Positions 3,376 to 53,535 of a stretch of 60,787 nt of DNA are shown here, one piece after another (positions within the stretch are counted from its first letter, which is position 1; every line of letters starts with the position of its first letter). The stretch spans positions 1 to 60,787 of the IMG/VR virus record IMGVR_UViG_3300040801_003247. One strand, 5' to 3'. The DNA is from a virus. The notes beneath the pieces are model-generated. The model saw only the letters and a program-made list of their open reading frames with translations, ran no database searches and was not told where the DNA came from. Made by a program: the position numbers and the translations under genes.

Positions 3376-3485
3376 CAGAGCAAATAGTCGCCGAGTTTAA
3401 CGCGATTATCTGGCTGTGGGGCGCCATCGCTCTTGCGGTGGTTGTTGTCCTGAACCGAAGGCGTAATGGCCCCAGAAATCCCTAA
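3372..3485 (+). CDS. Tiny single-pass membrane protein
   Basis: The 37-residue protein MTEQIVAEFNAIIWLWGAIA... has a hydrophobic stretch at about residues 11-27 and a basic tail (NRRRNGPRNP). AAGGAG stands 6 nt before the ATG. It overlaps both neighbours, so it belongs to a translationally coupled chain. Function unknown. Confidence 0.65.
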   Translation: MTEQIVAEFNAIIWLWGAIALAVVVVLNRRRNGPRNP

Positions 3486-3744
3486 ACCAGGCAAAAGGGT
3501 CGTTGATCAGAGCTTCTATGACAAAGTCCGCAAGCGGGATGGGTGTTGTTTGTATGGCCTGATCCACAAAGACGGGTGTTTTGGTATGTTGCACGTCCAC
3601 CACATAAAGTACCGTGGTCGAGGTGGAGACGACGATGTGGCGAATGGCATTGTCCTATGCAGAAAACATCACGAGATGGTGCACCGTGGAGAGATATCCA
3701 TAGATGAACTAAAACAAATACAAAAACAATTTAGTAGTTGGTAG
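3466..3744 (+). CDS. HNH endonuclease
   Basis: The 92-residue protein has the HNH metal-binding nuclease core: H45-H46 in HVHHIKYRG, N60 in DVANGIVLC, and H69 in CRKHHEMVH. Cysteines at about 27-28, 38 and 65 could bind a structural zinc. Phage HNH proteins are either homing or nicking nucleases or help DNA packaging. This one lies far from the terminase, and both roles are possible. The ATG at 3466 has AAGGCG upstream and overlaps the preceding frame by 20 nt. Confidence 0.85.
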   Translation: MAPEIPKPGKRVVDQSFYDKVRKRDGCCLYGLIHKDGCFGMLHVHHIKYRGRGGDDDVANGIVLCRKHHEMVHRGEISIDELKQIQKQFSSW

Positions 3745-7524: not shown

Positions 7525-9019
7525 TATCCTTGACAGAATTCCCTATTGGTCTGACCTGAGCAATACTAGTAAAGAAACCCAAACTGAATGGGATAACCGC
7601 TTAGCTCACCTAGAAATGCTGGAAAAGTATTTCGCAGGTGAGATTTTTACGCGCAGGGTTGAAGATCCTGAGGCAGAAGATGAAACGCCGCTGCTGTATC
7701 CTATCGGCGCAAACTTAGCCAAGACCCTGTGTTTGTCGATGGCTGATTCTATCTTTGGTGAATGGGATGAGTCGGTGGTCAAGTATGAGCCAGCTCGGAC
7801 AATTAAAACAAGCGGAACCATTGTGGCTGGCATCAAGCAAATGGAACATATTCTGCGAGCCTCCCGTTCAAACTCACGACTGTGGGAACTTGAACTTGAC
7901 CGCAATAAGTTCGGCGGCGGGATACTAAAAATGAACGCAGGTAGCCAGGCGCCACATTACGTTACCTGGAGCCGTATACAGGCCACCGAGTTTTATCCCG
8001 TCGTAGACCCCACCAACGAAGAAAACTTTTTAGCAGCCAAGGTTGTCTCTTACATCACTCGCGAGCAGGCGAGGATGCGCTTTGATTACGCAGGCAATGA
8101 CGAGCGGGTAAAAGTCGAGGAGATTTGGGATCTTAAATCATACAGCTATTTAGTTGGTGGAAAAAGCATTGAGGAATATTCGGGCATAAACCCCTTTGGG
8201 GTCGTGCCCTTTGTCTATGTCCCCCGCTTCCGTTCCTCGGACTGGTACGGCGACTCTCTGATCGACGATGTACGCTTGGTGCAGGATGAGCTCAACGGCC
8301 GCTTGGCCGATCTGGGTGAGGCGATCAACTTCAATGCCCATCCCACTCGCTGGGGTGTCAATCTGCCCCGTAAGTTTAACGCTAAAAATTACCCGCTGGG
8401 CGCTAACGTCCTGTGGGATTTGGGTAAGGCTTTTGCAGGTGCCCCGCAACCACAGGTTGGCATTCTAGAAGCCATGAACCCTATACCGCAAGGTAGCTTT
8501 GATTTTATCAAATGGATTTATGACTGGTCGAGGACATCTGTCTTTGCCCCACCGATCGCCTTTGGCGAGGACAGCGGCGGCGGACAACGTTCTGGCGTAA
8601 CCCTTGAAATTCGCCTGTGGCCTTTGATTAAATCCGTTCGCAGGTCTCGGTCTTATTTGATTACTGGGTTGAACAAAGCCATGGAGATTTCGGCCAGAAT
8701 TCTTGAGCAACGCAAGGTTGTTCCTCAAGAGGTGATCGAAGTCATGCGTGATGGCAGTATTGTGCCTGCCTTCTCCGCTGTGATGCCTCGTGACCAGGCG
8801 GCTCTTGTCGATGAGGTCGTCAAGCGCCTGAGCACCAATCCGCCTACCGTCAGTCTAACCGAGGCTTTGAAGATATTGGGTAGCCCTGCCAGCGAAGAAC
8901 AGGCCATCTATCAAATGATGGACGAGATCGCCAGTCGCAATATCAAGCAACAGCAGGCTATTTCCAGCGCAGGAAATAACGATCAACCCAACCAGGAAAA
9001 GGTGAATGAAAAGAACTAA
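7514..9019 (+). CDS. Portal protein
   Basis: This 501-residue protein (GTG start) is expected to form the dodecameric ring at the capsid vertex through which DNA passes. Length, position directly after terminase, and the layout agree with the SPP1 gp6-like portal group: a mixed N-terminal part, a central stem region with DDVRLVQDELNGRLADLGEAINFN, and a Gln/Asn-rich C-terminal tail. I see no protease or fused domain. It overlaps the next gene by 14 nt. Confidence 0.85.
   Translation: MASNILDRIPYWSDLSNTSKETQTEWDNRLAHLEMLEKYFAGEIFTRRVEDPEAEDETPLLYPIGANLAKTLCLSMADSIFGEWDESVVKYEPARTIKTSGTIVAGIKQMEHILRASRSNSRLWELELDRNKFGGGILKMNAGSQAPHYVTWSRIQATEFYPVVDPTNEENFLAAKVVSYITREQARMRFDYAGNDERVKVEEIWDLKSYSYLVGGKSIEEYSGINPFGVVPFVYVPRFRSSDWYGDSLIDDVRLVQDELNGRLADLGEAINFNAHPTRWGVNLPRKFNAKNYPLGANVLWDLGKAFAGAPQPQVGILEAMNPIPQGSFDFIKWIYDWSRTSVFAPPIAFGEDSGGGQRSGVTLEIRLWPLIKSVRRSRSYLITGLNKAMEISARILEQRKVVPQEVIEVMRDGSIVPAFSAVMPRDQAALVDEVVKRLSTNPPTVSLTEALKILGSPASEEQAIYQMMDEIASRNIKQQQAISSAGNNDQPNQEKVNEKN
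8962..8975 (+). repeat. Dispersed 14-bp motif, AGCGCA centre
   Basis: TTCCAGCGCAGGAA in the portal gene near its 3' end, flanked as ATTTCC...GGAAAT. Read as S-S-A-G. Confidence 0.7.
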
Positions 9020-9785
9020 AGTCATTTTTGCCACGGATGCCCATGTACCCTATGAAGATAAAGAGGCGATAGCGCTTGCGCTGAAAATTGGAGAAGATTT
9101 CAACCCAGATTTAAGAGTGGCTGGGTCAGACGGATTGGATTTTTATAGAATATCGAGATTTGACAAAGACCCCTTACGAGGTAAAGGCACTACCCTCCAA
9201 GACGAGATATATCGGTGGCAGTATATGGAACAGGACTGGAATGATGCCTGTCCTAACGCAAAAGCCAAGTATCTTCTCGGAAACCATGAAATTCGACTGC
9301 GCAAATACATCTGGAACCAGGCACCAGAGCTTGCCAGTTTGGATGGACTTCACTTCGACAGCATCCTTGCGCTAGATGCCTTAGGCATCGAGTACGAGGA
9401 TTTCGATAATGAGTCCAACAATCAAGAAATAACCGTCGGCTGTTTGGCGATCAAGCACGGCTCTGCGGCTAGGAAACACTCTGGCTGGAGCGTAAAGGCT
9501 GAGCTTGAGAACGAGTTCTACGCCATCAATATCCTCAGCGGCCACTGTCACAGGGGTGCGCAGGTATATGTCACCAGCCGAAACGGCGTTGTCAAAGGGG
9601 TCGAGGGTTTTTGTTTATGCGACCTACACCCGTCCTATGTGGCGGGGAGAAACCCCAACTGGCAACAGGGGATTGTACTTGCGGAGGTGGATGATGAAAC
9701 AGTCGATTTTGAGTTGATACCCTTCGAACGTGTCAGAGGTGCTCTGAGAGCTATCTGGCGCGGTAAAGAATATCTTGTTAAATAG
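9006..9785 (+). CDS. Calcineurin-like metallophosphoesterase
   Basis: The 259-residue protein has the metal-binding motifs in order: D-A-H at residues 11-13, GSDGLD near 40-45 (where most members have GD-x-x-D), GNHE near 94-97, KHGS and SGHCHRG. Such enzymes hydrolyse phosphodiester or phosphomonoester bonds. The Ser in place of the usual Gly in the second motif is unusual but keeps the Asp residues. It lies between portal and decoration/scaffold genes, an odd place for an enzyme. It may process DNA ends or signalling nucleotides, or be carried in the virion (inference). Confidence 0.85.
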   Translation: MKRTKVIFATDAHVPYEDKEAIALALKIGEDFNPDLRVAGSDGLDFYRISRFDKDPLRGKGTTLQDEIYRWQYMEQDWNDACPNAKAKYLLGNHEIRLRKYIWNQAPELASLDGLHFDSILALDALGIEYEDFDNESNNQEITVGCLAIKHGSAARKHSGWSVKAELENEFYAINILSGHCHRGAQVYVTSRNGVVKGVEGFCLCDLHPSYVAGRNPNWQQGIVLAEVDDETVDFELIPFERVRGALRAIWRGKEYLVK

Positions 9786-13013: not shown

Positions 13014-13586
13014 ATGGCAGAAGCATACGAGATCGAGGACAGCATCCACAACGCTATCATGCACCATGTCAAGGATGCTATCGTTGATCAAATTCAAGAT
13101 GCACTCCCCGACGGGCACCCCATCAAACCTGGGGTGGTCAAGATCGGGCCACTTTTAGGCGATCCCATGGATCCCGATGAGGCTCGGATCACGGTGATGA
13201 TCTTTGAGAACGACCCAGACGAGAAAGACAGCTTTCAATGGTGCGATGAACCCGCTTCAGACGATTACGGCGGCCTTGAAATAGGTGGCGGGATCACATG
13301 GATGCGCCGTTTCACCATCAAAGTTGACATGTACCTTGAGCGCACCCGTGAGGATGTTGACGCTGCAAGGCGAATCGCTGGGTCTTTGAAGAACCGCTTG
13401 GAGGAAGTCGTTATGGGACTTTCCTTCAACAATGTCTCTATTGAGGACGAGTATGTTTCCAGAGGTGCTTTTGCTTCAACGATTAAGTCAACAGTTCGAC
13501 AAGGTGGAGGCCCGCCAGACTCTTACCAATTTCATATCAAATTACGTTTTGAAGTTCTAACTACTAAAACAGGAGTTCTACAATGA
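13014..13586 (+). CDS. Putative neck or tail terminator protein
   Basis: This 190-residue alpha/beta protein lies between the connector and the tail tube. The central WMRRFTIKVDMYLERTREDVDAARRIAGSLKNRLEEVVMGL resembles the strand-helix pattern of tail-completion proteins, which close the tail tube at the head end. It starts 1 nt after the previous stop and overlaps the tube gene by 4 nt. Domain family not certain. Confidence 0.6.
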   Translation: MAEAYEIEDSIHNAIMHHVKDAIVDQIQDALPDGHPIKPGVVKIGPLLGDPMDPDEARITVMIFENDPDEKDSFQWCDEPASDDYGGLEIGGGITWMRRFTIKVDMYLERTREDVDAARRIAGSLKNRLEEVVMGLSFNNVSIEDEYVSRGAFASTIKSTVRQGGGPPDSYQFHIKLRFEVLTTKTGVLQ

Positions 13587-14644
13587 CTGCATCAGAAAAT
13601 TCCTACTTAGGAATAGCCAAACAGTCAGCCAAGGGAACTGTCAACACAACCGACGCCGATTTCAAATACTTTCTCTTTCGAGAGGGCTCTGTTGCCCCAA
13701 ACAACATGGTCATCCCTCTGGACATGGAAGTAGGCGGGGGTGCATTGCCCCGTGGTCTGGTTAAAGTTGGCGTTACCAGCGCTGGCATGCTTGATGTTAT
13801 TCCTCGCCCAGACACTCTGGGTATTATGCTGAGGGGTGCCCTTGGCACTTCCGCTGTTCCCGTAGCGGGCGCAGGCGACGACAGTGATGTTTATGATCAC
13901 GTCTTTACCCTCGGCTCCAATCAATTTGTTCAACCCTATTACACCCTGCGTTCTTCACCAGGTGGCATGTGGGGCGAGCAATTCCAGGACGTCAAAGTCG
14001 CTTCACTGATTTTGAACATGCGTGCTGCACGTTTCGTCGAGGCCGCATACGGATTTGTCGGCGGTAAACCAACACCCGTTGCCACAACCCTGTGGGCACC
14101 TTCCACCAAGATTGACGGTGGCGCTCAATTCTTGACCCCCATTGGCGCTATTGAAATTCCAGACGCAACCTCATGGAAAGTCACCAACGCCTCGTTGATG
14201 GTGACTAACGCTATTCCTCTGGATGATCAATGGGTGATCGGGTCTTACTTCCCCGATGACTTTGAGCTGACCCAAAGGGCAATTCTGCTTCAAATGCGGG
14301 TCAAGGTCGCCGACGATGGCGTTCTGTACAAGAAGATGGCCTATGACAAGGCTGGCACCTCTGCTTGGGTCGCCAATATCCTCAAAGAGGGTGACATTGA
14401 CATTTGGGTCAAATCTGACACCCCCGCGGGCGCAGCTGCTGGCAGTTCACCGCATCAGCTCACCATTACGGCCAACGGCCAAAGTGGCGATGCTGGCAAC
14501 GTGGCTTTCTCAGTTGAACCCATCGGCCTTCGTGCTGGCGGGCAGGTAATGATGAACGTGACTGGCTTGTTCCTCGCCGATCCAACAGGCACAAACGAGC
14601 CCATCACCATTACTCTCAAGAACGGCACCTCAACCCAGTACTAA
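13583..14644 (+). CDS. Major tail tube protein
   Basis: The 353-residue protein starts MTASENSYLGIAKQSAKGTVNT, a usual opening for siphophage tube proteins. Beta-rich segments follow, and a C-terminal Ig-like part (HQLTITANGQSGDAGNVAFSV...NEPITITLKNGTST) probably decorates the tube surface. It sits between the tail terminator and tail chaperones, where the tube gene belongs. AAACAGGAG stands before the ATG. Confidence 0.82.
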   Translation: MTASENSYLGIAKQSAKGTVNTTDADFKYFLFREGSVAPNNMVIPLDMEVGGGALPRGLVKVGVTSAGMLDVIPRPDTLGIMLRGALGTSAVPVAGAGDDSDVYDHVFTLGSNQFVQPYYTLRSSPGGMWGEQFQDVKVASLILNMRAARFVEAAYGFVGGKPTPVATTLWAPSTKIDGGAQFLTPIGAIEIPDATSWKVTNASLMVTNAIPLDDQWVIGSYFPDDFELTQRAILLQMRVKVADDGVLYKKMAYDKAGTSAWVANILKEGDIDIWVKSDTPAGAAAGSSPHQLTITANGQSGDAGNVAFSVEPIGLRAGGQVMMNVTGLFLADPTGTNEPITITLKNGTSTQY

Positions 14645-14697: not shown

Positions 14698-15144
14698 ATG
14701 TCTGAAATCAATTTTGGTAAATACGCAGTAGTAACCCCAATCGAACACCGCTTTGAGCAGGAGCCTGATTGGTTTTGGAAAATCAAGCCCGTGAGCTCTG
14801 GTGATGAACTGGAGATGCAAAAGTTCTTATGGCAGCGACGAGTGCAGGTTACCAATGGTGTGCGAGAGGAAATCCCGCCAGTCAACATGGAAATTATTTA
14901 TCGCGAAATCGCCTTGAGTTTCGCTGGAACCAACATTCCAAAAACCACAATAGAAAACGACGAAGTTGTTGTTGTCACCGATACAAAAGGGGAGGTCGTA
15001 CCTATTTTGTACAGTAATGCCAACGTCGGGCAGATCGAAGCTGTGCTGAAGCAGATGCCAACAGCCATGATCATGGAAGTTTGGAAAGCGGTCGGTGAAG
15101 CAAACCCTACTTGGGGTCCAGGAGACCAGAAGAAAGCCTCTTAA
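14698..15144 (+). CDS. Tail assembly chaperone (G-like)
   Basis: The 148-residue protein precedes the tape measure gene, the classical place of tail assembly chaperones, which coat the tape measure during tail assembly. Core segments are SGDELEMQKFLWQRR, YREIALSFAGTNIPKT and MPTAMIMEVWKAVGEANPTW. The same three segments return in degenerate form in the gene at 15364, so the two are paralogues. CAGGAGAG precedes the ATG. Confidence 0.7.
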   Translation: MSEINFGKYAVVTPIEHRFEQEPDWFWKIKPVSSGDELEMQKFLWQRRVQVTNGVREEIPPVNMEIIYREIALSFAGTNIPKTTIENDEVVVVTDTKGEVVPILYSNANVGQIEAVLKQMPTAMIMEVWKAVGEANPTWGPGDQKKAS

Positions 15145-15149
15145 ATGAC

Positions 15150-15401
15150 ATGGAGGACAAAATCAAGGATTCCATCCTTGATGGGATCTCCGATGACCCT
15201 GTCCTCGACCAGCTGGTCGCACTGACCTTGAATGAGATACTGCGGGGGAGGCCTTTGTTCCTCTCTCCACTGGACGAGCCTTATTTTTACCAGAAGAACT
15301 TCCGTCGCTGGGTAGAAGAAGGGCTTGAAGAATATCGCAAAGCAAACGAAACCGAGGCAAAAAATGTTCGAGGCTTACAAGAAACCCAGTTTAGCGCATA
15401 A
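15150..15401 (+). CDS. Small protein between tail chaperones (T-like candidate)
   Basis: The 83-residue acidic helical protein MEDKIKDSILDGISDD... lies in the -1 frame relative to the preceding chaperone. In many siphophages the second chaperone is made by a -1 ribosomal shift. The overlapping frame is open back to 15111, but the zero-frame sequence (CAG AAG AAA GCC) is not a standard slippery heptamer, so independent initiation at ATG 15150 is equally likely. Confidence 0.55.
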   Translation: MEDKIKDSILDGISDDPVLDQLVALTLNEILRGRPLFLSPLDEPYFYQKNFRRWVEEGLEEYRKANETEAKNVRGLQETQFSA

Positions 15402-15699
15402 GTTTGAAAAATCACCTGAAGATGAAATGGTATTCCGCTTTCCTACGTCGGAAGATGACAGGGACTTGGAACGCTTTTTGGAAGCAGAGCCCACCTTTTT
15501 AGAGGTCAAGCTCTTTCAGCTCTCCCTGCTGTTTGAGAGCACCAATATCAAAACCGAGCAAGACATGCCGATCATGCAGGAAGGTGATTCGGTATTTGAC
15601 AAGATGGACGTCTTTTTAACCATGCCTATTGGCATGATCAACGAGCTATACGACGCTCTGGTTGACTATTATCCTGCCTGGAAAATGACAGCGGAGTAA
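15364..15699 (+). CDS. Second tail assembly chaperone, paralogue of the G-like protein
   Basis: The protein has 111 residues; ATG 15364 is chosen for GAGG 6 nt upstream. FRFPTSEDDRDLERFLEAEPT, LFQLSLLFESTNIKTE and MPIGMINELYDALVDYYPAW match, in order, three segments of the protein at 14698. A gene duplication separated by an 83-residue ORF is the simplest reading. It overlaps the previous gene by 38 nt and ends 1 nt before the tape measure start. Confidence 0.65.
   Translation: MFEAYKKPSLAHKFEKSPEDEMVFRFPTSEDDRDLERFLEAEPTFLEVKLFQLSLLFESTNIKTEQDMPIMQEGDSVFDKMDVFLTMPIGMINELYDALVDYYPAWKMTAE
15440..15453 (-). repeat. Dispersed 14-bp motif
   Basis: TTCCTACGTCGGAA in the second chaperone gene, read as P-T-S-E. 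Confidence 0.9.
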
Positions 15700-15700
15700 T

Positions 15701-18700
15701 ATGCCGATCCTGTTTGGTGACGACGACACCAATTACAGCAGCAATCCTGCTGATGAAGAACGAGCTCGACAGCTCCGCAGGGAGTTTGAGCGAGTTAGAG
15801 CGGCCTCTTATGGCCGCTCTTGGGATTCACCTGGGGTTGCAGGAGCACGTGGGGAAATCCAAAAATCCGTCAATAAATGGCGCAACTACATCAATAGTAT
15901 TCAAACCACTGGTACTGCTGGGTCGAGGCGTAACCGTATCAGTCCTCTGTATGGCGTTTCCAGCTCTTTTAATCCGAGCTCTGTTTTACAGACAGAGGTT
16001 TTGAGTAAGGTTGTCAGTCAAGAGATTGCAAAGTCCTACAATCCTCTCTCTAAACCCGTTCAACAACTTCTGGTTGAGAATTTCTCAAAGACGGTTCAGA
16101 AAACGGCTGGCTATCAATATGGTCATCTACCGTCGGAAATAACACCTGATGTCGATCGGCGTCTGACCACCGCCCAGCGTATGGCTATTGGCCAGCGAGT
16201 GGATGGCGAGGTCGGGCAGGTTGTCCGTCAGATGGCTAAGATGGCGGGGTTCAGCGTCAAGGAGATGGAAACCTTTGCCCGTGGCAGTCGCCCCAAGGGC
16301 TCCAATCTGGACTCTATCCGAAACAGGATCACCAAAGTCGGCCTGCGTTTTGACGACTTCAAAACGCTTGTAAAACTTTCTTCTCCCACTGCGACCTACG
16401 GCGATATGCAAAATGCCATTTATGGCTCTTTTGTGCGTTCTTTAGCGCATTTTTCTGATGCCCGTGAACACGGTGACTTCTGGGAGAGTTACGACAGCGC
16501 TTCTTTAGGCGTTATTGAAAACATGGGACGGTTTAATCCGTCTCAGGCATCATCTTCTGGGCATGCGGGTTACTGGTTATTGCAGAGGGCTTTTGGCCAG
16601 ACCCGTGCGAGCGAGCGTGCTACGGCTCGCTCTTTTACTTTATCAAATTATGAGGCAACCAATCCTGTCACAGCCGCCCAAGCTGTCCTCAAAGAGTTTA
16701 CAGGCATTTATGGGGTATCAGCATCAACCATTCTCAAGAAATACGGTCTTGAAATGGGAGACCAGTTTGACCCAGGCATTGCAAAATATATTGTTTCTCA
16801 TAAAGCAGACATCCTTGGTTATACGCAGGGCAATCTAGGTATTTTCGAAACCAATAAAACTTTCTCCGAAGGCGTTGATGAGGGTGAGTTTGGCTACCAT
16901 GACGTTGTCCCTGATGTAGCTGAGGGGGCTGTTATTTACGCCAATGAAGCCAATGCCATGGCACGACTGTTGCCTCGCATGGTGGGTAAGCATGGCCTGC
17001 CAACGGGTTATTATACAGCCTCTGGACAGCTATTTGATGATACAGGGCACTTCTCTCCACTGCACGGCTATCAATATGGTAAACAGGCTATCCCGCAAAA
17101 AAGAAAAGGTGATCCGTATTATGCACAGGGTTATTATTTTACTGGCACGGACACAATCATGTCTGTTCACAACAGGGGGAAGTCGTGGACTAACGCTTCT
17201 AACCGCCGATTTCAGAATGATCCAAACCCTGCTATCCAAACTGGAAAATTCAAACAGCTGATCTTGTCCCCTGATGATATCAAGCATTTCTTGACCCTTG
17301 ATCCCAGAATCTTAGGGGATAAGGATCGTGAAGTTTATAATAAGCTACTCCCTCAACTAAAACAAACCTACAACGTTATGAACGCTGTCGTCAGCGGTTC
17401 AACGGATGACCAAGAGGCTCTCAGGGATTTATCGCAACGCTTCGAGGATGAGGCTGGCTGGCGCACAACCCTTCCTGGCGGAATGACCAGTAAGGGCCCC
17501 ATATCGACAAGGCATACCACACTGCCAGAGGGTGTTCTTTGGCGCAGGGATTTTATTGAGCAAAAGTTTGACAAGAACACTGGCTTGTCAATTGGTCATT
17601 ACGATAAAATCGCCAGACGATTTATCTCGCCAGACGAAGCTGAACTTGCCAATCGGCAATACGGCTTACCCGTACATCAATATCCTAACTGGAAAACTCT
17701 CAGCGCCAGCAGTGTCGGCCCTGCCGAAAAACAGGCCTACAATCTTGAAGATCCCTCGGTGGATATCTTTGGGCCTGGTACTGGGACTCTGGATGACTTT
17801 TTCAACCCCAGACTGAAGTTCAAGGCTGGTCGGCAAGGCTCACCTAATTTCAGGCGGGATGACAATATTCGTGACGATTTTGAGTATCTAGAGGAGCAGT
17901 ACCTGCATGCCACACAGCAACTGGGTGGTATGGTTCAAAAATATGAGGGTCGCTTTACGCCAGAGGCTCTTGAAAAACTAAGCCCCCGTGAGCGCTGGCA
18001 AAGCAGGCCAGGTTACGTGCGTAAGGCAGAGCGGAACGTCAGGTACTGGAAAAGCCGTTTGATCAATTCGGAAACTGGCAACCTGCACTTTCTTTCTCCT
18101 GAGAGCACTGGTTCACAGGGTTATGACGATACCGCTACTGAATATGCGATCAAACAGTCCCGCCGTGTCATGCTGGGTTATCCAGAGGAACAGCGGACTG
18201 ATACGGAAGCTCGTATGCGCACAGATACTGAGATGCGTTTACTGGCTTCTCAAAACAAGGCCTTGACCGAGAGCGTGATTGAGCCTTATCAGCGTCTTAA
18301 GGGCATGATCGGTTCAGCTCAGTTTGAATCCCTGTCAGAGGCTGACCGCCAAGCCATTCTTGGTAATTTCAATAAGTATAAAACCTATTTATCAAAGTGG
18401 ACAGCGAGCAATCGAGAGTACACAACCAGCGTTGCGCAGCCAGACCAGTATGACAGCTCAAACCCAGATGCCGATCTGGTCGCTGCTGCCCGTCGCCTTG
18501 GGCGCTCTAACAACATTTTTTCAAAGACTCATATTGCTGATAAAAGCTATTATCCAACACGTAACGCCATTGTTTCTGCTGGCCCATTGACGGTCGAGGC
18601 CAGAAAAGAACTTGGACTGCCTTTGGTCGATCCAAGGGCACCAGATTATCAATTTAACCAGAGAAATCAAATTCCTACGTCGGAAATAGGCCTTGATGGG

Positions 18701-21700
18701 CCAGTTCGCAGACGACAGCCACTAAGTTTAGATCCTTCTGAAAGCGGGGTGATGCCCTTGTCTAGGAACGTAAGTTATTTACATCGACGACCAGAACCAA
18801 GACGGTTCTCCGAGGACAACCCCGCACGGTATCTTGAGGGTGTGCCGATGGTGGATCAGCAGAGTATTTTGGCGTCACGAAGTGGCAACATGCTGATTTA
18901 CGGTCAAGCTGGTGCTGGTAAAACAGAATTGCTTGGCAACTTACAAATTGACGCCGCTCGCCGAAGGGGCATTAGACCTGATAGGCATTTATTCCTGACA
19001 GGAACAACGACAGCTCGTGAAAACTGGTATGACCGCCTCGATAAACTTGAGGGCAGTCCTGGCGACGCCATCAACTTCCATCAACTGGGCTTCAGAGCGC
19101 TGAAGAAAATCTCTGGCACGCATGGTGTGCCCTCGGATTTCTCAGGCCATAACATCATGCTTCCGCTTGATTATCACAACATGACTGCCGATATCCTTGA
19201 GCGTCTGCCCAATACACCTCAGCGGTTTGTAGAGGGAAGTTATAACCAGGAATTTGGTAGTTACGTGCATAAATACGCTAAGGCAGCCGAGGACTACCGC
19301 TCACAGATGATGTCCCAGAGAGACTACGGGACGAAGTTGTTCGATGACTTTGTTAACGAAAACAACCTTGAGCCAGAGCTGTTCCAGTATGTATTCAATA
19401 AATCCGAGGAACAACTCAAGTCACAGGGGAAGTTCACCTTCTCCAAGTTGATCTCAGAACCCGCTATGATCATGGCGCAAGAGCAAAATCCTGAATTGAA
19501 CAAACGTATGGTGGGCGGATATGACGCCATTACCATTGACGAGATCAATCAGGTCGGTACAGCCGCTTTGTCTCTTACCACCTCAACTATGGCTGCTAAC
19601 CCACGTGCGTTGCTCACCGCTGGCGGTGACCCACTGCAAATGTTGTGGAATTTCATCAAGGGTTCTCCACAAAACGCAGAGACCATCGCTCGTGTCGGTA
19701 ATATGCAGAAGGTCAACCTCAATCAAAACTACCGTCTCGATCAGGGAGCGGTGGATATTGTTGGGCGCTTATTTAATCTACCCGACGAAATGAAGCCAAG
19801 GGTCGTGGATAGGCAAGGTAATATTCTGCCAGTGCAGGGGACTGAGCAAGAGCGTATCAACAACTTCCTGAAAGACTCCTATCTCGTAGAGAATGCGCAA
19901 GACCGCAACAGGCTGGTAGTCGATAAAGTCAGGGCTCTCAAGGACGCTGGTGTGGCCAACAAGGACATTATGTTCCAAGGGGCAACCAAGCGTGAAGTGG
20001 CTGAGATCTCCGAAGCCCTTCAAAACGCTGGTTTTTCTACATGGTCAAAGCCAAACGAGATGGATTACATCCATGCCGTCCTGTCTGATACTGAAGGCTC
20101 CATGACCCCTGAGCGTGCCAAGATGTTGATGGACGAGCGCATGACTGCTCGTACAGATGACGATATCCTCGGTACAACTGTCCACAGTGGTCAGGGCGCT
20201 GAGGCAATGAACGTTATCACCAGTATGAGCCAAGCGGATCTTGCCTCGATGCCTGATATGGAAGCCAGAGCTCTGGTTGGCGTCGCTGCTACCCGTGGTA
20301 TACGGGGCGGAACCCACACCTTTGTTTCGCAACAACAGCGAGGTGGCGCTCCCAAGGTCTTAAAAGAACTTGGTGGCGCATGGGCGCCTTCTAATCAATT
20401 AAACGAAGCCCGTTCTATGCAACCCAGACGTACTTCCAGTACGACATCGGGTTCACGAGCTCGTTCTTCCGAGTTAATAACAAGTGCTGGCGACTTTATC
20501 GACGAAGATCGTATCAGCAATCGTATCGCATCAACCTTTGAGCGTAGAGGCCCCATGGACGGCCCTGAGGCTGCTTATGCTGCAACTGGCGCTGTTGTTG
20601 CGCAAAGAGCGGCTGTAGACGCTTTAGAACAACTAAGGCAATCCCCACCCCAAACCAGGGTGGAATTTGCCCGTAAGTTCGATCAAATTGTACAGGACGC
20701 TATTCTTGAGCGCACAGAGGCATTTGTAGGCGAAGGCGCCACACCTGGACAACAGTCCATTCGTGGCTATGCTCAGGAATATGGTCGTTCTGTTTCTGGG
20801 CTTGTGCAGGAAGCCTTAGGTCGTACACCTAACCATCTTGCTAAGGGCGTTAACTCTAAATGGACTGAGTACCATCCCTTTGGCTGGAGTGGGGATGATG
20901 AGGGCTATGATGGTGGTGGCACTTCTGGTGGCGGCGGTGGTGGCGGCGGACGTCGTGGTGGAGGCAGTCAGCCAAGTGGCTTTTACGGACGTAATCCAAT
21001 GGCTGCTTTTGGCCGTGGAGTTTACGCTCTGTCAATGGCCTGGAATGTTGCCAGACGTGGCTTTGAAGCAGAATCAACCGATGCTAAGCGGTACTCTGAT
21101 TATCTATCAACCTTTGGACACTTCGCCGCTCAAGATGGCGCTTTCGGGACTAGCGAATATGGTGATTACGCCAAACGAGTAGTCAGCGAGCGTATGATGC
21201 AGAAAGGCGCTTACGAGCAATTCGGTGCCTTCACAACCATGCCTTACGCCATGGCAAAGGCTGGCGCCGACTGGATACCGCGTATGTCCTCGGCTGCTAA
21301 TGTTGGTTTCCAGACGATTGTTGGTGGCGCCGAGGCCGCTTACGGTCTTTCTATTATGGGGCAGGCTGGCGGCATGCCTTGGGCCGCAGCTGCCGCTAAA
21401 TCTGTTGCTGTAGGTGCTGGTGTTGTAGGCGGGACAATTATTGGTGGCGCAGCCCTTATGGAAGGTTACAACGCCATTGCTCAACCAAAGAAAAATCTAA
21501 GTTGGGGAGAGCTTGGCAATCAGGTTCTTAAGCATGTTTATACGGAAATAAATTACGGCGAAGCTGCTAGTCGATACAAAGAATATCAGGGGATAAAAGA
21601 AGGACAAGATACTGGCGGTGACAAAGGCAGGTTAAAACTTGCTGGACAAGCGCAGAATTTCGCTTTTGTTGCTAGTGGAGGGATGACTTCTCCTGCGGCT

Positions 21701-23914
21701 TATTTTGCATCAGTAAACCAAGCTCAGACTCCTCGTGAAGCAAGTCCAGAAGAAATTCGGGACATATCTTGGGAAGAAGTCGTCAAAGAGAAATTCCCCT
21801 CTATCTACTGGCAGGTTGAGGGTGAAGCCTCGCAAATGGCTAATAACGTCAGGGATATGTCGGAAGCCATCTTTGAGAAGTATGGCATCCCTGTAGAGAA
21901 ATCACAATCAATGGCCGCTCGTGTTCTGGGTGAAAACAACAGGTCATGGTACGGCGGTCGTGTATCCTCTAAAGACGTAGGGTTGACCTTACAGTCTAAG
22001 GCTACTGCACTGGGTTATAGCAGCGGAGAAGAATATTACGGTGTTATTGCGCAACAGGCAGGCAATATGGGTTACTTGCCTGGTTCAAAGTCTTATCAAG
22101 ACTACATCGGCTCCCAGATGTTCGCTCAGGGTCAGACCCGTGAGCAGGTAGAGCTTCAAAACTACTACACCCAGCGTGTGGGTCAGTACGGTTCACAACT
22201 GGCTGGTTACTTCGTTACCCCTGGTATGGGCGAGGGCATGGTGTCAAGTTTCGGCATGATGACCCAACCTCAGGTTGGTGCTGCTTCAGCCATGGGTTCC
22301 ACCGTACAGATGTACGGGGGTACACAGTATCAAACCCAGATTGCTATGGGGCTTTCCAGCTACGAAACCCCAGCGCAGGCGCAAGCGATTGCGGGTATAG
22401 GACAAATGTACGGCAATGCTGGCCTCGACCCAATGACGGCTATCACGTCCCTGGCTGGCCAGAATATGCCTATGAACCAGCTCAATTTAATGGGTGCGAT
22501 TGCTGGCGGGGATATTGGAGCGCTATCTTATGCCTCATGGAACAAGTCCTTTGGTGAGGGAAGCTATACCAATTGGGGTAATCGCTTCTACGATCAGCTG
22601 GGCGATCCGATTTATATGCGCAGTGGCAACGACTTCTCCAAGTGGGCAGATGCTAACCAGATTGGCCCCAATGTTGGGGTAGGTCTGGCCAATGTCAGTT
22701 CCAACGCAGGAATGACAGGACTGTCTGGCGCCGACTGGTTCCGAAATTATTTTGGCGGTGGCGGTTCGGATGCTTACTATCAAGCATGGGCGCAGGGCGG
22801 TCTAAAGGGTGCTCAAACCCACGTGCAGGGGCAGATGGCTGAATACAGTATGGCTTCCATCGGTATCCAGATGCAGCAGCTTAACCTGCAACGCTCCTAT
22901 TTGTGGGGCTCTGGCACATACGATAAACCTGGTGCGGGTTCCTCCTGGTATATCGAAGATCAGATGCGGGCACTCCAGCATCAATCGACTTTGGCGGGTT
23001 TTGCGTCCAGCCAAAAGAGTATGGAAGCCAATTATGCCTACAGTCAACAGACTGAAGGCGCTAATCTCCAGCGCATGGAGACCCAACACGGTTATCAGCG
23101 CTGGATGTCCAGCTTTGATCGGATGAATAGCCTGCGTCAGCGGACTTGGACAAAGGAAGATTGGGGCTATCAGGACACCATGCGTGGCCTCTCCTATGAA
23201 TGGGGCATGGAGGACATCAACGAGTCTATTCGTGGGGCAACAGGACGGGAACGCCGACTGTTGATCCGCAAACGAGACCGCATGGGCACCCAGCATAATC
23301 TGGAAGAAGAACAGGTTGATACCCAGCGAGAGCGCCAAGAGGAAATGTGGGCGCTTGAAGATCAACGCTATCAAAAGGTTACCGAGTATCAAGAGAGCTT
23401 GATGGAGCTTGATACAGAAGGCTTTGAGCTCAATAAGACCCACCGTGAAGAAATGCACCAGCTTGACGTCGAGGAATTCGAGCGACGTAAGCAGGAATAC
23501 GCCGAGCAAAAGAAACTTCAAGACGAAGCCTTAGATCTTCAGCGCAAACATCAAGCCGAGAGCATGGAGCTTCAGGAGAAGTCCCTCGGTATCCAGGCTG
23601 CTTCAGCTGCCCTGCAAAAGCAACTGGCCAACGATCAGAAGAAGATCATGGCTGATTGGGAAATCCATCTCAAGAAACTGGACAATCTCAACAGGTATGA
23701 CCCCGCCAAAGGCAACATTGCCTTGATGGAAGGCGTGATTGAGGAATTTGGCAAGGCTAACAGCGCCAATATCACCAATGTTAAGGAAGTCTTACAAGCT
23801 CTCAATAAGAATCTTCCTGGCGCAGACGCAATGATCAACCTTGTGACTGCTATCAACGGCGTTGACTTTTATCGCCTGAACGCCATCGTCAGACTACTGT
23901 CACTCATGGACTAA
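15701..23914 (+). CDS. Giant tape measure-position protein with embedded UvrD-like SF1 helicase domain
   Basis: The protein has 2,737 residues and stands between tail chaperones and distal tail genes, the place of the tape measure protein. Residues 1 to about 1040 are unrecognised. Residues about 1050-1560 contain a full SF1 helicase set: Q-motif Gln 1053/1054, Walker A GQAGAGKT 1068-1075, Ia FLTGTTTARENW, Ib INFHQLGFRAL, II ITIDEIN with D1280-E1281, III AGGDPLQMLW with D1310 and Q1313, IV NQNYR with R1345, V VHSGQGAE with H1495, VI GVAATRG with R1532. A Gly-rich linker (about 1735-1757) follows, then hydrophobic segments (about 1868-1920) and a long charged coiled coil (about 2470-2660), as in tape measures. 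There is no frameshift or stop anywhere. A helicase in a virion tail protein would be ejected into the host with the DNA; that role is inference. Confidence 0.85.
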   Translation: MPILFGDDDTNYSSNPADEERARQLRREFERVRAASYGRSWDSPGVAGARGEIQKSVNKWRNYINSIQTTGTAGSRRNRISPLYGVSSSFNPSSVLQTEVLSKVVSQEIAKSYNPLSKPVQQLLVENFSKTVQKTAGYQYGHLPSEITPDVDRRLTTAQRMAIGQRVDGEVGQVVRQMAKMAGFSVKEMETFARGSRPKGSNLDSIRNRITKVGLRFDDFKTLVKLSSPTATYGDMQNAIYGSFVRSLAHFSDAREHGDFWESYDSASLGVIENMGRFNPSQASSSGHAGYWLLQRAFGQTRASERATARSFTLSNYEATNPVTAAQAVLKEFTGIYGVSASTILKKYGLEMGDQFDPGIAKYIVSHKADILGYTQGNLGIFETNKTFSEGVDEGEFGYHDVVPDVAEGAVIYANEANAMARLLPRMVGKHGLPTGYYTASGQLFDDTGHFSPLHGYQYGKQAIPQKRKGDPYYAQGYYFTGTDTIMSVHNRGKSWTNASNRRFQNDPNPAIQTGKFKQLILSPDDIKHFLTLDPRILGDKDREVYNKLLPQLKQTYNVMNAVVSGSTDDQEALRDLSQRFEDEAGWRTTLPGGMTSKGPISTRHTTLPEGVLWRRDFIEQKFDKNTGLSIGHYDKIARRFISPDEAELANRQYGLPVHQYPNWKTLSASSVGPAEKQAYNLEDPSVDIFGPGTGTLDDFFNPRLKFKAGRQGSPNFRRDDNIRDDFEYLEEQYLHATQQLGGMVQKYEGRFTPEALEKLSPRERWQSRPGYVRKAERNVRYWKSRLINSETGNLHFLSPESTGSQGYDDTATEYAIKQSRRVMLGYPEEQRTDTEARMRTDTEMRLLASQNKALTESVIEPYQRLKGMIGSAQFESLSEADRQAILGNFNKYKTYLSKWTASNREYTTSVAQPDQYDSSNPDADLVAAARRLGRSNNIFSKTHIADKSYYPTRNAIVSAGPLTVEARKELGLPLVDPRAPDYQFNQRNQIPTSEIGLDGPVRRRQPLSLDPSESGVMPLSRNVSYLHRRPEPRRFSEDNPARYLEGVPMVDQQSILASRSGNMLIYGQAGAGKTELLGNLQIDAARRRGIRPDRHLFLTGTTTARENWYDRLDKLEGSPGDAINFHQLGFRALKKISGTHGVPSDFSGHNIMLPLDYHNMTADILERLPNTPQRFVEGSYNQEFGSYVHKYAKAAEDYRSQMMSQRDYGTKLFDDFVNENNLEPELFQYVFNKSEEQLKSQGKFTFSKLISEPAMIMAQEQNPELNKRMVGGYDAITIDEINQVGTAALSLTTSTMAANPRALLTAGGDPLQMLWNFIKGSPQNAETIARVGNMQKVNLNQNYRLDQGAVDIVGRLFNLPDEMKPRVVDRQGNILPVQGTEQERINNFLKDSYLVENAQDRNRLVVDKVRALKDAGVANKDIMFQGATKREVAEISEALQNAGFSTWSKPNEMDYIHAVLSDTEGSMTPERAKMLMDERMTARTDDDILGTTVHSGQGAEAMNVITSMSQADLASMPDMEARALVGVAATRGIRGGTHTFVSQQQRGGAPKVLKELGGAWAPSNQLNEARSMQPRRTSSTTSGSRARSSELITSAGDFIDEDRISNRIASTFERRGPMDGPEAAYAATGAVVAQRAAVDALEQLRQSPPQTRVEFARKFDQIVQDAILERTEAFVGEGATPGQQSIRGYAQEYGRSVSGLVQEALGRTPNHLAKGVNSKWTEYHPFGWSGDDEGYDGGGTSGGGGGGGGRRGGGSQPSGFYGRNPMAAFGRGVYALSMAWNVARRGFEAESTDAKRYSDYLSTFGHFAAQDGAFGTSEYGDYAKRVVSERMMQKGAYEQFGAFTTMPYAMAKAGADWIPRMSSAANVGFQTIVGGAEAAYGLSIMGQAGGMPWAAAAAKSVAVGAGVVGGTIIGGAALMEGYNAIAQPKKNLSWGELGNQVLKHVYTEINYGEAASRYKEYQGIKEGQDTGGDKGRLKLAGQAQNFAFVASGGMTSPAAYFASVNQAQTPREASPEEIRDISWEEVVKEKFPSIYWQVEGEASQMANNVRDMSEAIFEKYGIPVEKSQSMAARVLGENNRSWYGGRVSSKDVGLTLQSKATALGYSSGEEYYGVIAQQAGNMGYLPGSKSYQDYIGSQMFAQGQTREQVELQNYYTQRVGQYGSQLAGYFVTPGMGEGMVSSFGMMTQPQVGAASAMGSTVQMYGGTQYQTQIAMGLSSYETPAQAQAIAGIGQMYGNAGLDPMTAITSLAGQNMPMNQLNLMGAIAGGDIGALSYASWNKSFGEGSYTNWGNRFYDQLGDPIYMRSGNDFSKWADANQIGPNVGVGLANVSSNAGMTGLSGADWFRNYFGGGGSDAYYQAWAQGGLKGAQTHVQGQMAEYSMASIGIQMQQLNLQRSYLWGSGTYDKPGAGSSWYIEDQMRALQHQSTLAGFASSQKSMEANYAYSQQTEGANLQRMETQHGYQRWMSSFDRMNSLRQRTWTKEDWGYQDTMRGLSYEWGMEDINESIRGATGRERRLLIRKRDRMGTQHNLEEEQVDTQRERQEEMWALEDQRYQKVTEYQESLMELDTEGFELNKTHREEMHQLDVEEFERRKQEYAEQKKLQDEALDLQRKHQAESMELQEKSLGIQAASAALQKQLANDQKKIMADWEIHLKKLDNLNRYDPAKGNIALMEGVIEEFGKANSANITNVKEVLQALNKNLPGADAMINLVTAINGVDFYRLNAIVRLLSLMD
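18672..18685 (-). repeat. Dispersed 14-bp motif
   Basis: TTCCTACGTCGGAA, read as P-T-S-E, about 200 nt before the helicase part of the giant tail gene. It is the only full copy in that 8.2-kb gene, and the next copy is 7.4 kb away, the largest gap in the window. Confidence 0.9.
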
Positions 23915-52632: not shown

Positions 52633-53535
52633 ATGCAACTGTCCGAGGCACTACAAGGTTATTTTTTGGCCTGCAAGGTCAACAACGTCTCTGAAAAAAC
52701 GATGACGGGTTATGAATACAATCTCAACAATTTTATGGAAGTCGTCGGGGATATGCCCGCTTTTGATCTGTCCCCAAATCACATCAGGGCTTATATGGCT
52801 CACGAGATGGAGCGCAAGAATGTTCACAATGGCGAACCCCTCTCCAGCGAAACTCGCATGAAGGCCTACACCGTTGTACGCTCTTTTGCCAGGTGGCTTT
52901 ACAATCAGGATTTGACTCCGCACTGCGTGACCGATAAAACCAAGGCGCCCAGAACCGAGCAGTTGATGCCAGAGGTACTAAGTAAAGATGAGATACGCAA
53001 AATCTTTGAGTACATTGATATAGCTGGCACCTACAGGGATAAGGTGATCTGGGAATTCTTCCTTGATACAGGCTGTCGTCTGGCAGAGGTGGCCAGGCTG
53101 AAGATTGACGATGTCAACCTGATAGAAGGCTGGGCTAAGGTTTACGGTAAAGGCCGTAAAGAGGGCATTGTCCCTATGGGCAATAGGGTATGCGAGGACT
53201 TACATCGCTATATTGCACGATATCGCAGAGCCCCGTCGGATGAAACCAAGGTGTTCTGTTCCAACAGGGCTCCTTATAGGGGGTTGACAAAAGATGGTCT
53301 CCAGATGCTGATTAAGCGGGTGCACAAAGCCGTGGGCATCAAGGGTAAGTACGGCCCGCATATCCTGAGACATACGATGGCCACCCAGTTTATCACCAAC
53401 GGCGGGGATGTCTCAATCCTGCGTAGGATTTTACGCCATACAGATATCAAGACGACTCAAAGATATGTAAATCTGGCGGCCTCGGATATAATTGCGTCTC
53501 ACAGAGACAACAGCCCAATTGATCGGATGGGGTAA
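52633..53535 (+). CDS. int: Tyrosine recombinase / phage integrase
   Basis: The protein has 300 residues. A SAM-like N-terminal core-binding domain (1-105) is followed by the catalytic domain with the full set: R149 in GCRLAEV, K173 in GKGRK, H243 and R246 in HILRHT, H269 in LRHTD, and nucleophile Y278 in QRYV. Compact XerC/D-like build, without the extra arm-binding domain usual in lambda-type integrases. It would insert phage DNA into the host chromosome. AAGGAG precedes the ATG. Its 3' end overlaps a converging gene by 89 nt. No excisionase was recognised nearby. Confidence 0.9.
   Translation: MQLSEALQGYFLACKVNNVSEKTMTGYEYNLNNFMEVVGDMPAFDLSPNHIRAYMAHEMERKNVHNGEPLSSETRMKAYTVVRSFARWLYNQDLTPHCVTDKTKAPRTEQLMPEVLSKDEIRKIFEYIDIAGTYRDKVIWEFFLDTGCRLAEVARLKIDDVNLIEGWAKVYGKGRKEGIVPMGNRVCEDLHRYIARYRRAPSDETKVFCSNRAPYRGLTKDGLQMLIKRVHKAVGIKGKYGPHILRHTMATQFITNGGDVSILRRILRHTDIKTTQRYVNLAASDIIASHRDNSPIDRMG

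Follow-up and report, generated by a model that had tools for sequence, protein, structure and literature searches.

The window analysed here, which comprises all 60,787 bases of an IMG/VR virus record, encodes a giant protein in which a UvrD-like helicase domain with both RecA-like lobes is joined, in one reading frame, to a C-terminal core in the tape-measure position, an arrangement that is supported by sequence, by a structural model and by gene order. The same fusion occurs in a related phage, and further relatives carry other enzymes, or none that can be recognized, at the same place; this suggests a second function of the tail ruler, as an enzyme carrier. Our preferred reading, with a probability of roughly 60%, is that of a two-part tape measure, in which a C-terminal ruler is joined to an N-terminal cargo that would be delivered with the genome and act at the DNA end.

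Results

A UvrD-like helicase domain within a tail gene

An earlier note on this DNA had described a single frame of 2,737 codons at 15701-23914, and the ORF check bore this out; a GGAG motif lies directly 5′ of the ATG. The product is referred to here as P0001 (Table 1). The same note had read a series of SF1 motifs in it. All the residues that it named (K1074, D1280-E1281, Q1313, R1345 and R1532) are found at the positions claimed and in the right order, but the series has to be amended in that motif II reads DEIN, motif V reads HSGQGAE and there is no 2B domain.

The Pfam family PF00580 (UvrD-helicase) matches residues 1052-1327 of P0001 with E=6.8e-17 (62.5 bits; cut-off 23), and a PHROG DNA helicase family matches the protein with E=5.7e-14. 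Because the Pfam match spans the first lobe only, the second lobe was tested apart. Using hhalign, a profile of the helicase domain from the two phages that carry it was compared with UvrD, Rep and four more; the match covers lobe 1 and reaches into the beginning of lobe 2 with P=1.5e-17, against 0.16-0.92 for the reversed and shuffled controls together and 0.16-0.88 for the shuffles alone. At the level of sequence, the match to UvrD and Rep is well above chance. Motifs V and VI fall in register with those of UvrD and Rep (P=0.024 for the short piece alone; 0.088-0.60 when reversed or shuffled). In an alignment of 82 rows, which includes 80 viral UvrD-like helicases, K1074, H1127, D1280, E1281, G1309, D1310, Q1313, R1345 and R1532 are invariant (82/82).

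With the 82-row alignment as input, AlphaFold2 modelled residues 1040-1570 with a pLDDT of 90.2 and a pTM of 0.87, and the whole model matched UvrD, PcrA and Rep in a Foldseek search of the PDB (E from 2e-20 to 6e-18). Structure prediction of this part against UvrD, Rep and PcrA, which the earlier note had put forward as a check, thus places both RecA-like lobes in the domain. Since the input alignment consists of UvrD relatives, the model serves as a test of consistency and not as an independent discovery; a prediction from two sequences alone reached a pLDDT of 33 and was discarded.

The 2B domain is typical of SF1 UvrD-like helicases but not universal among them. Its absence from P0001 is seen as a gap in the alignment and in the spacing between motifs IV and V, which is 150 residues compared with 276 in UvrD; at 460-510 aa, several further viral proteins of the UvrD type likewise lack the length to hold it. 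P0001 departs from UvrD also by DEIN in motif II, GQG in motif V and a Trp for Tyr in motif III, and the replacement of DExQD by DEIN could change the activity of the predicted helicase.

Apart from that of the sister phage, the viral UvrDs found share only ~20-33% identity with the P0001 helicase, over parts of their sequences. Most of those found stand alone, and many phages encode such proteins of 460-820 aa. Among the less usual forms, a 1,344-aa ORF (L129) contains a viral UvrD helicase that is split at motif II (DEAQDLNKC...SHNCQ) by an apparent intein; a 1,883-aa ORF (L106) encodes another giant viral protein, whose central UvrD domain is flanked by unrecognized N- and C-terminal parts; and viral UvrD proteins with long N-terminal extensions were found in L117, L124 and L138.

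Table 1. Features of the tape-measure region, with positions in the window
Feature	Position	Strand	Details
Tail protein, probable tube, 5′ of the chaperones	13583..14644	+	phrog_290 minor tail protein, E=4e-14
Putative G-type tail assembly chaperone, 148 aa	14698..15144	+	by position
Slippery heptamer A AAC CCT, in frame	15102..15108	+	would permit -1 slippage to the T-like frame
T-like frame, -1 relative to G, overlapping	15111..15401	+	open to 15401
Small ORF separating T and the tape measure	15325..15699	+	G-like by eye
Helicase-fused gene in the tape-measure position	15701..23914	+	P0001, 2,737 aa; ATG to stop, uninterrupted
Stretch weakly like sigma-70 region 2	16412..16585	+	residues ~238-295; hhalign
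UvrD-like SF1 helicase domain, two RecA-like lobes, no 2B	18818..20410	+	residues 1040-1570; Pfam, AlphaFold2, Foldseek
Motif I (Walker A), GQAGAGKTE	18902..18928	+	residues 1068-1076
Motif II, DAITIDEINQ	19523..19552	+	residues 1275-1284 (D1280, E1281)
Motif III, GDPLQMLW	19625..19648	+	residues 1309-1316 (Q1313)
Motif IV, NQNYRLD	19721..19741	+	residues 1341-1347 (R1345)
Motif V, HSGQGAE	20183..20203	+	residues 1495-1501
Motif VI, VAATRG	20282..20299	+	residues 1528-1533 (R1532)
Gly-rich linker from the proposed N-terminal cargo region to the C-terminal core	20891..20986	+	residues ~1731-1762
C-terminal tape-measure core, family-wide	21008..23911	+	residues 1770-2737; blastp and length analysis

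Gene neighbourhood and the C-terminal core

The genes upstream of P0001 encode, in this order, TerL, portal, phosphoesterase, major capsid protein, a tail protein and a G/T pair. Overlapping chaperone genes stand before the tape-measure genes of many phages (PMC2147016), and the tape-measure position proposed earlier is supported by a large gene 3′ of a G/T pair with the slippery sequence AAACCCT, with one small ORF in between. The putative G-type chaperone had no match in PHROG. The small intervening ORF may be a duplication of the G-like chaperone.

Beyond the helicase, the Gly-rich linker described in the earlier note is present; of its hydrophobic segments one was found, at residues 1901-1920 within the core, and its coiled coil (~2480-2650) is discerned by eye only. 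No tape-measure family matched P0001 in the PHROG search, and the core matches no named family strongly; among the relatives, P0012 alone matches phrog_5062, weakly (E=0.03). An ending of the GE-x-GPE type, which is common in tape measures, can be seen by eye at the C-termini of four relatives.

Several other genes of this phage were noted. The metallo-phosphoesterase gene lies between the portal and capsid genes at 9006-9785 (PHROG E=1e-33), a position at which relatives have an ORF of similar size. The region 1887-2825 of the window reads, by eye, like a C5 cytosine DNA methyltransferase, and an integrase family match at 52633-53535 (E=2e-49) indicates that the phage may be temperate. A DnaB-like helicase and a primase are encoded in another region; given these and the integrase, a plain replication helicase is not obviously missing.

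The same fusion in a second phage

A search of INPHARED and of the viral contigs with the whole of P0001 retrieved no relatives, and for this reason they were reached through TerL and then through the C-terminal core. The search for the fusion in other phages, as suggested in the earlier note, found one, IMGVR_UViG_3300002702_000060, whose TerL is 80% identical and which encodes the helicase fusion in one frame of 2,669 aa. The two proteins share 40% identity overall and ~50% in the helicase, with all motifs kept. A one-frame fusion of the same kind in a second phage rules out an assembly chimera or a recent stop loss. A search for PF00580 in the records, some of them fragments, of nine other tape-measure or TerL relatives gave no match, and our searches of the open-access literature brought up no helicase-bearing tape measure.

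A constant core with changing N-terminal parts

In total, 14 proteins of 1,376-3,717 aa were gathered into the family by searches with the C-terminal core and through TerL in genomes. Twelve of these are homologous tape measures beyond the two fusion proteins, and their N-termini differ, with lengths of 460-2,509 aa. In the ten best-anchored of the 14, the core measures 943 ± 46 aa (CV 5%) from a common anchor, picked by hand, to the C-terminus, and the N-terminal part ranges from 460 to 2,258 aa (CV 40%). Two relatives, with tape measures of 1,458 and 1,376 aa, share the C-terminal part alone and have no helicase.

Various domains are found in the N-terminal parts. That of P0006 matches SLOG YspA (E=2.5e-7) and JAB (E=0.002), that of P0008 a PDDEXK_1 nuclease (E=8.5e-5), and that of P0005 contains an HExxH motif. 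The N-terminal part of P0009 probably holds an SF2 helicase, judging from SF2-like motifs seen by eye and from weak matches to Helicase_C (E=0.029) and to the start of a RecQ-like protein (P=0.008); a PDB search with this part retrieved nothing. Those of P0010 and P0011 resemble PD-(D/E)XK nucleases by eye only, and Pfam returned Cas4 for P0011 with E=0.14. No enzyme was found by Pfam in P0003, P0004, P0007, P0010, P0013 or P0014, and an ADP-ribosyltransferase-like look of the P0003 and P0004 N-termini was dropped for want of Pfam support. For P0012, Pfam gave no enzyme match in the N-terminal part; its only hit was a HINT domain close to the C-terminus. This HINT/intein-type domain covers residues ~3406-3533 of the protein, which is encoded at L040:524-11434 (PT-HINT E=2e-9).

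The resemblance of the P0001 N-terminus to sigma-70 region 2 is a lead only. In hhalign against four E. coli sigma factors, residues ~238-295 gave P values of ~0.0001-0.04 depending on the rows used, the lowest of which came from one of several alignments tried; for a six-sequence core the value was 0.004, with 0.24-0.86 for shuffles and 0.14 for the reversed sequence. Whichever grouping was used, the stretch and its counterparts in five relatives aligned with sigma-70 region 2.1-2.2, and P0005 has a weak match to Pfam Sigma70_r2 (E=0.015).

No genome was retrieved in a scan with the C-terminal core. A TerL scan of genomes found relatives in three MAGs, two of Anaerolineae and one of Deltaproteobacteria, and two of the three contributed members to the family. 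The host is possibly a member of the Anaerolineae, which is only a guess because the binning of phage contigs is unsafe.

Discussion

P0001 has in common with UvrD, Rep and PcrA (SF1A) the folds of both RecA-like lobes, the order of the motifs and the catalytic residues. Those helicases stand alone, whereas the P0001 domain lies inside a tail protein, lacks 2B and has DEIN in motif II and GQG in motif V. As in the tape measures of lambda (gpH), HK97, T5 (pb2) and 80alpha, the gene follows the chaperones, and the C-terminal core has a hydrophobic segment and may be largely helical; unlike in these, the N-terminal part in the P0001 family is up to 2.5 times as long as the core. To our knowledge, the enzymatic parts known in tape measures are cell-wall hydrolases and not DNA enzymes. 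A giant nucleic-acid enzyme that is delivered with the genome is the N4 virion RNA polymerase, but this is a polymerase and is not fused to a tape measure, in contrast to the helicase of P0001.

The polyvalent proteins, including P1 DarB, are giant, multidomain and proposed to be injected, with helicase, peptidase, JAB-type and nuclease-type domains (Iyer et al. 2017, PMC5512222), and the P0001 family resembles them in size and in the types of domain. Most of their helicases are of the SF2 SWI2/SNF2 type and linked to a methylase, with UvrD reported in a few actinomycete plasmid-type proteins, and the text of that paper does not mention tape measures (PMC5512222); P0001, in contrast, has a UvrD-like SF1 domain, and in its family the cargo is covalently built into the tape measure. 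One enzyme can be assigned with certainty in the P0001 chain and two are recognized in that of its relative P0006, and a general Pfam scan of P0001 reported no polyvalent-specific (LPD) or MuF/DarB-type domain. Sle1 and Tme, effectors of contractile injection systems, are related to tape measures (PMC13277306) and likewise link a tape-measure-like carrier to an effector function, as we propose for P0001; they differ in that they belong to contractile systems of Actinobacteria, have no DNA helicase and use a helical C-terminal domain as the effector (PMC13277306).

In the two-part tape measure that we favour, the C-terminal ~970 residues after the Gly-rich linker would serve as ruler and membrane-active part and fill the tail tube, and the N-terminal ~1,740 residues would be the cargo, here a UvrD-like SF1 ATPase/helicase without 2B. 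Assembly would be aided by the G/GT-type chaperones, and the cargo would be carried inside the tail or on it, probably in an unfolded or extended state, exit with the tape measure at genome ejection and then refold in the cell. There the helicase could use ATP to move on the incoming end of the phage DNA, which might be drawn in, shielded from host end-processing nucleases or readied for replication or integration. We infer presence in the virion, delivery, refolding, ATPase/helicase activity and the role at the DNA end. The N-terminus is read as interchangeable cargo because the core is nearly constant and the differing N-termini contain other enzymes; delivery of the helicase with the genome gains indirect support from relatives that keep the core and swap the N-terminal part, several of them for enzymes of nucleic-acid metabolism or conflict. 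Counted against this reading are the members with no recognized N-terminal enzyme (P0003, P0004, P0007, P0012, P0013 and P0014). The main physical objection is that a folded helicase exceeds the typical tail lumen in width, so that its transport needs unfolding.

Other explanations have to be weighed against this one. The N-terminal helicase might be cleaved off in the producing cell and serve late replication, recombination or packaging there, with only the core entering the tail. The Gly-rich linker would be an easy cut site, the core is constant in length by itself and stand-alone UvrD-like helicases are widespread in phages; we nevertheless consider this unlikely, as the phage already has its DnaB-like helicase and primase, and a role in late replication leaves unexplained the fusion to a tail gene in both phages and the presence of other enzymes there in relatives. 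Nor do we think it likely that the domain acts as a DNA-entry motor alone, with the core anchored at the membrane and the genome pulled in by 3′-5′ translocation from a single-stranded end. This is one version of the carrier explanation, and it agrees with the UvrD fold, with the hydrophobic segment in the core and with the location of tape measures where DNA crosses the membrane (PMC13190303). However, the same core in relatives carries a nuclease, a peptidase-like domain, SLOG or no recognized domain, which indicates that a motor is not generally needed.

That the helicase domain is catalytically dead, a structural filler or a DNA-binding part of the tail, appears quite improbable: motifs II and V do deviate from the UvrD consensus, but the two phages, at 50% identity, preserve the K, DE, Q and both arginines, and the length of the core is independent of the N-terminal part. 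The large size of P0001 and the lack of a strong tape-measure family match could also be taken to mean that it is some other giant virion or injected protein within the tail operon. We regard this as very improbable, given that its gene comes after a G/T pair with a slippery site, that the homologue in the same place is merely 1,376-1,458 aa long in two phages, and that the GE-x-GPE-type C-termini and the phrog_5062 match occur among relatives.

A broader proposal is put forward tentatively. In this phage family, some members of which are found in Anaerolineae MAGs, the tape measure may be a general injection vehicle, in which the C-terminal ruler stays constant and the N-terminal payload (helicases, nucleases, SLOG/JAB and peptidase-like domains) can be exchanged, possibly with a part like sigma-70 region 2 that would keep the host's RNA polymerase bound to the entering DNA.

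During DNA entry, tape measures work at the inner membrane, where the SNIPE nuclease meets them (PMC13190303). If the N-terminal part is delivered, enzymes would be placed where and when phage DNA crosses the membrane, the site that is attacked by SNIPE-type defences (PMC13190303), and the known concepts of the tape measure and of the injected polyvalent protein would be joined in one molecule. Such a protein would be a natural carrier, whose payload varies among relatives and whose ruler stays. With a changing payload on a constant ruler, what travels through a phage tail would then become directly testable.
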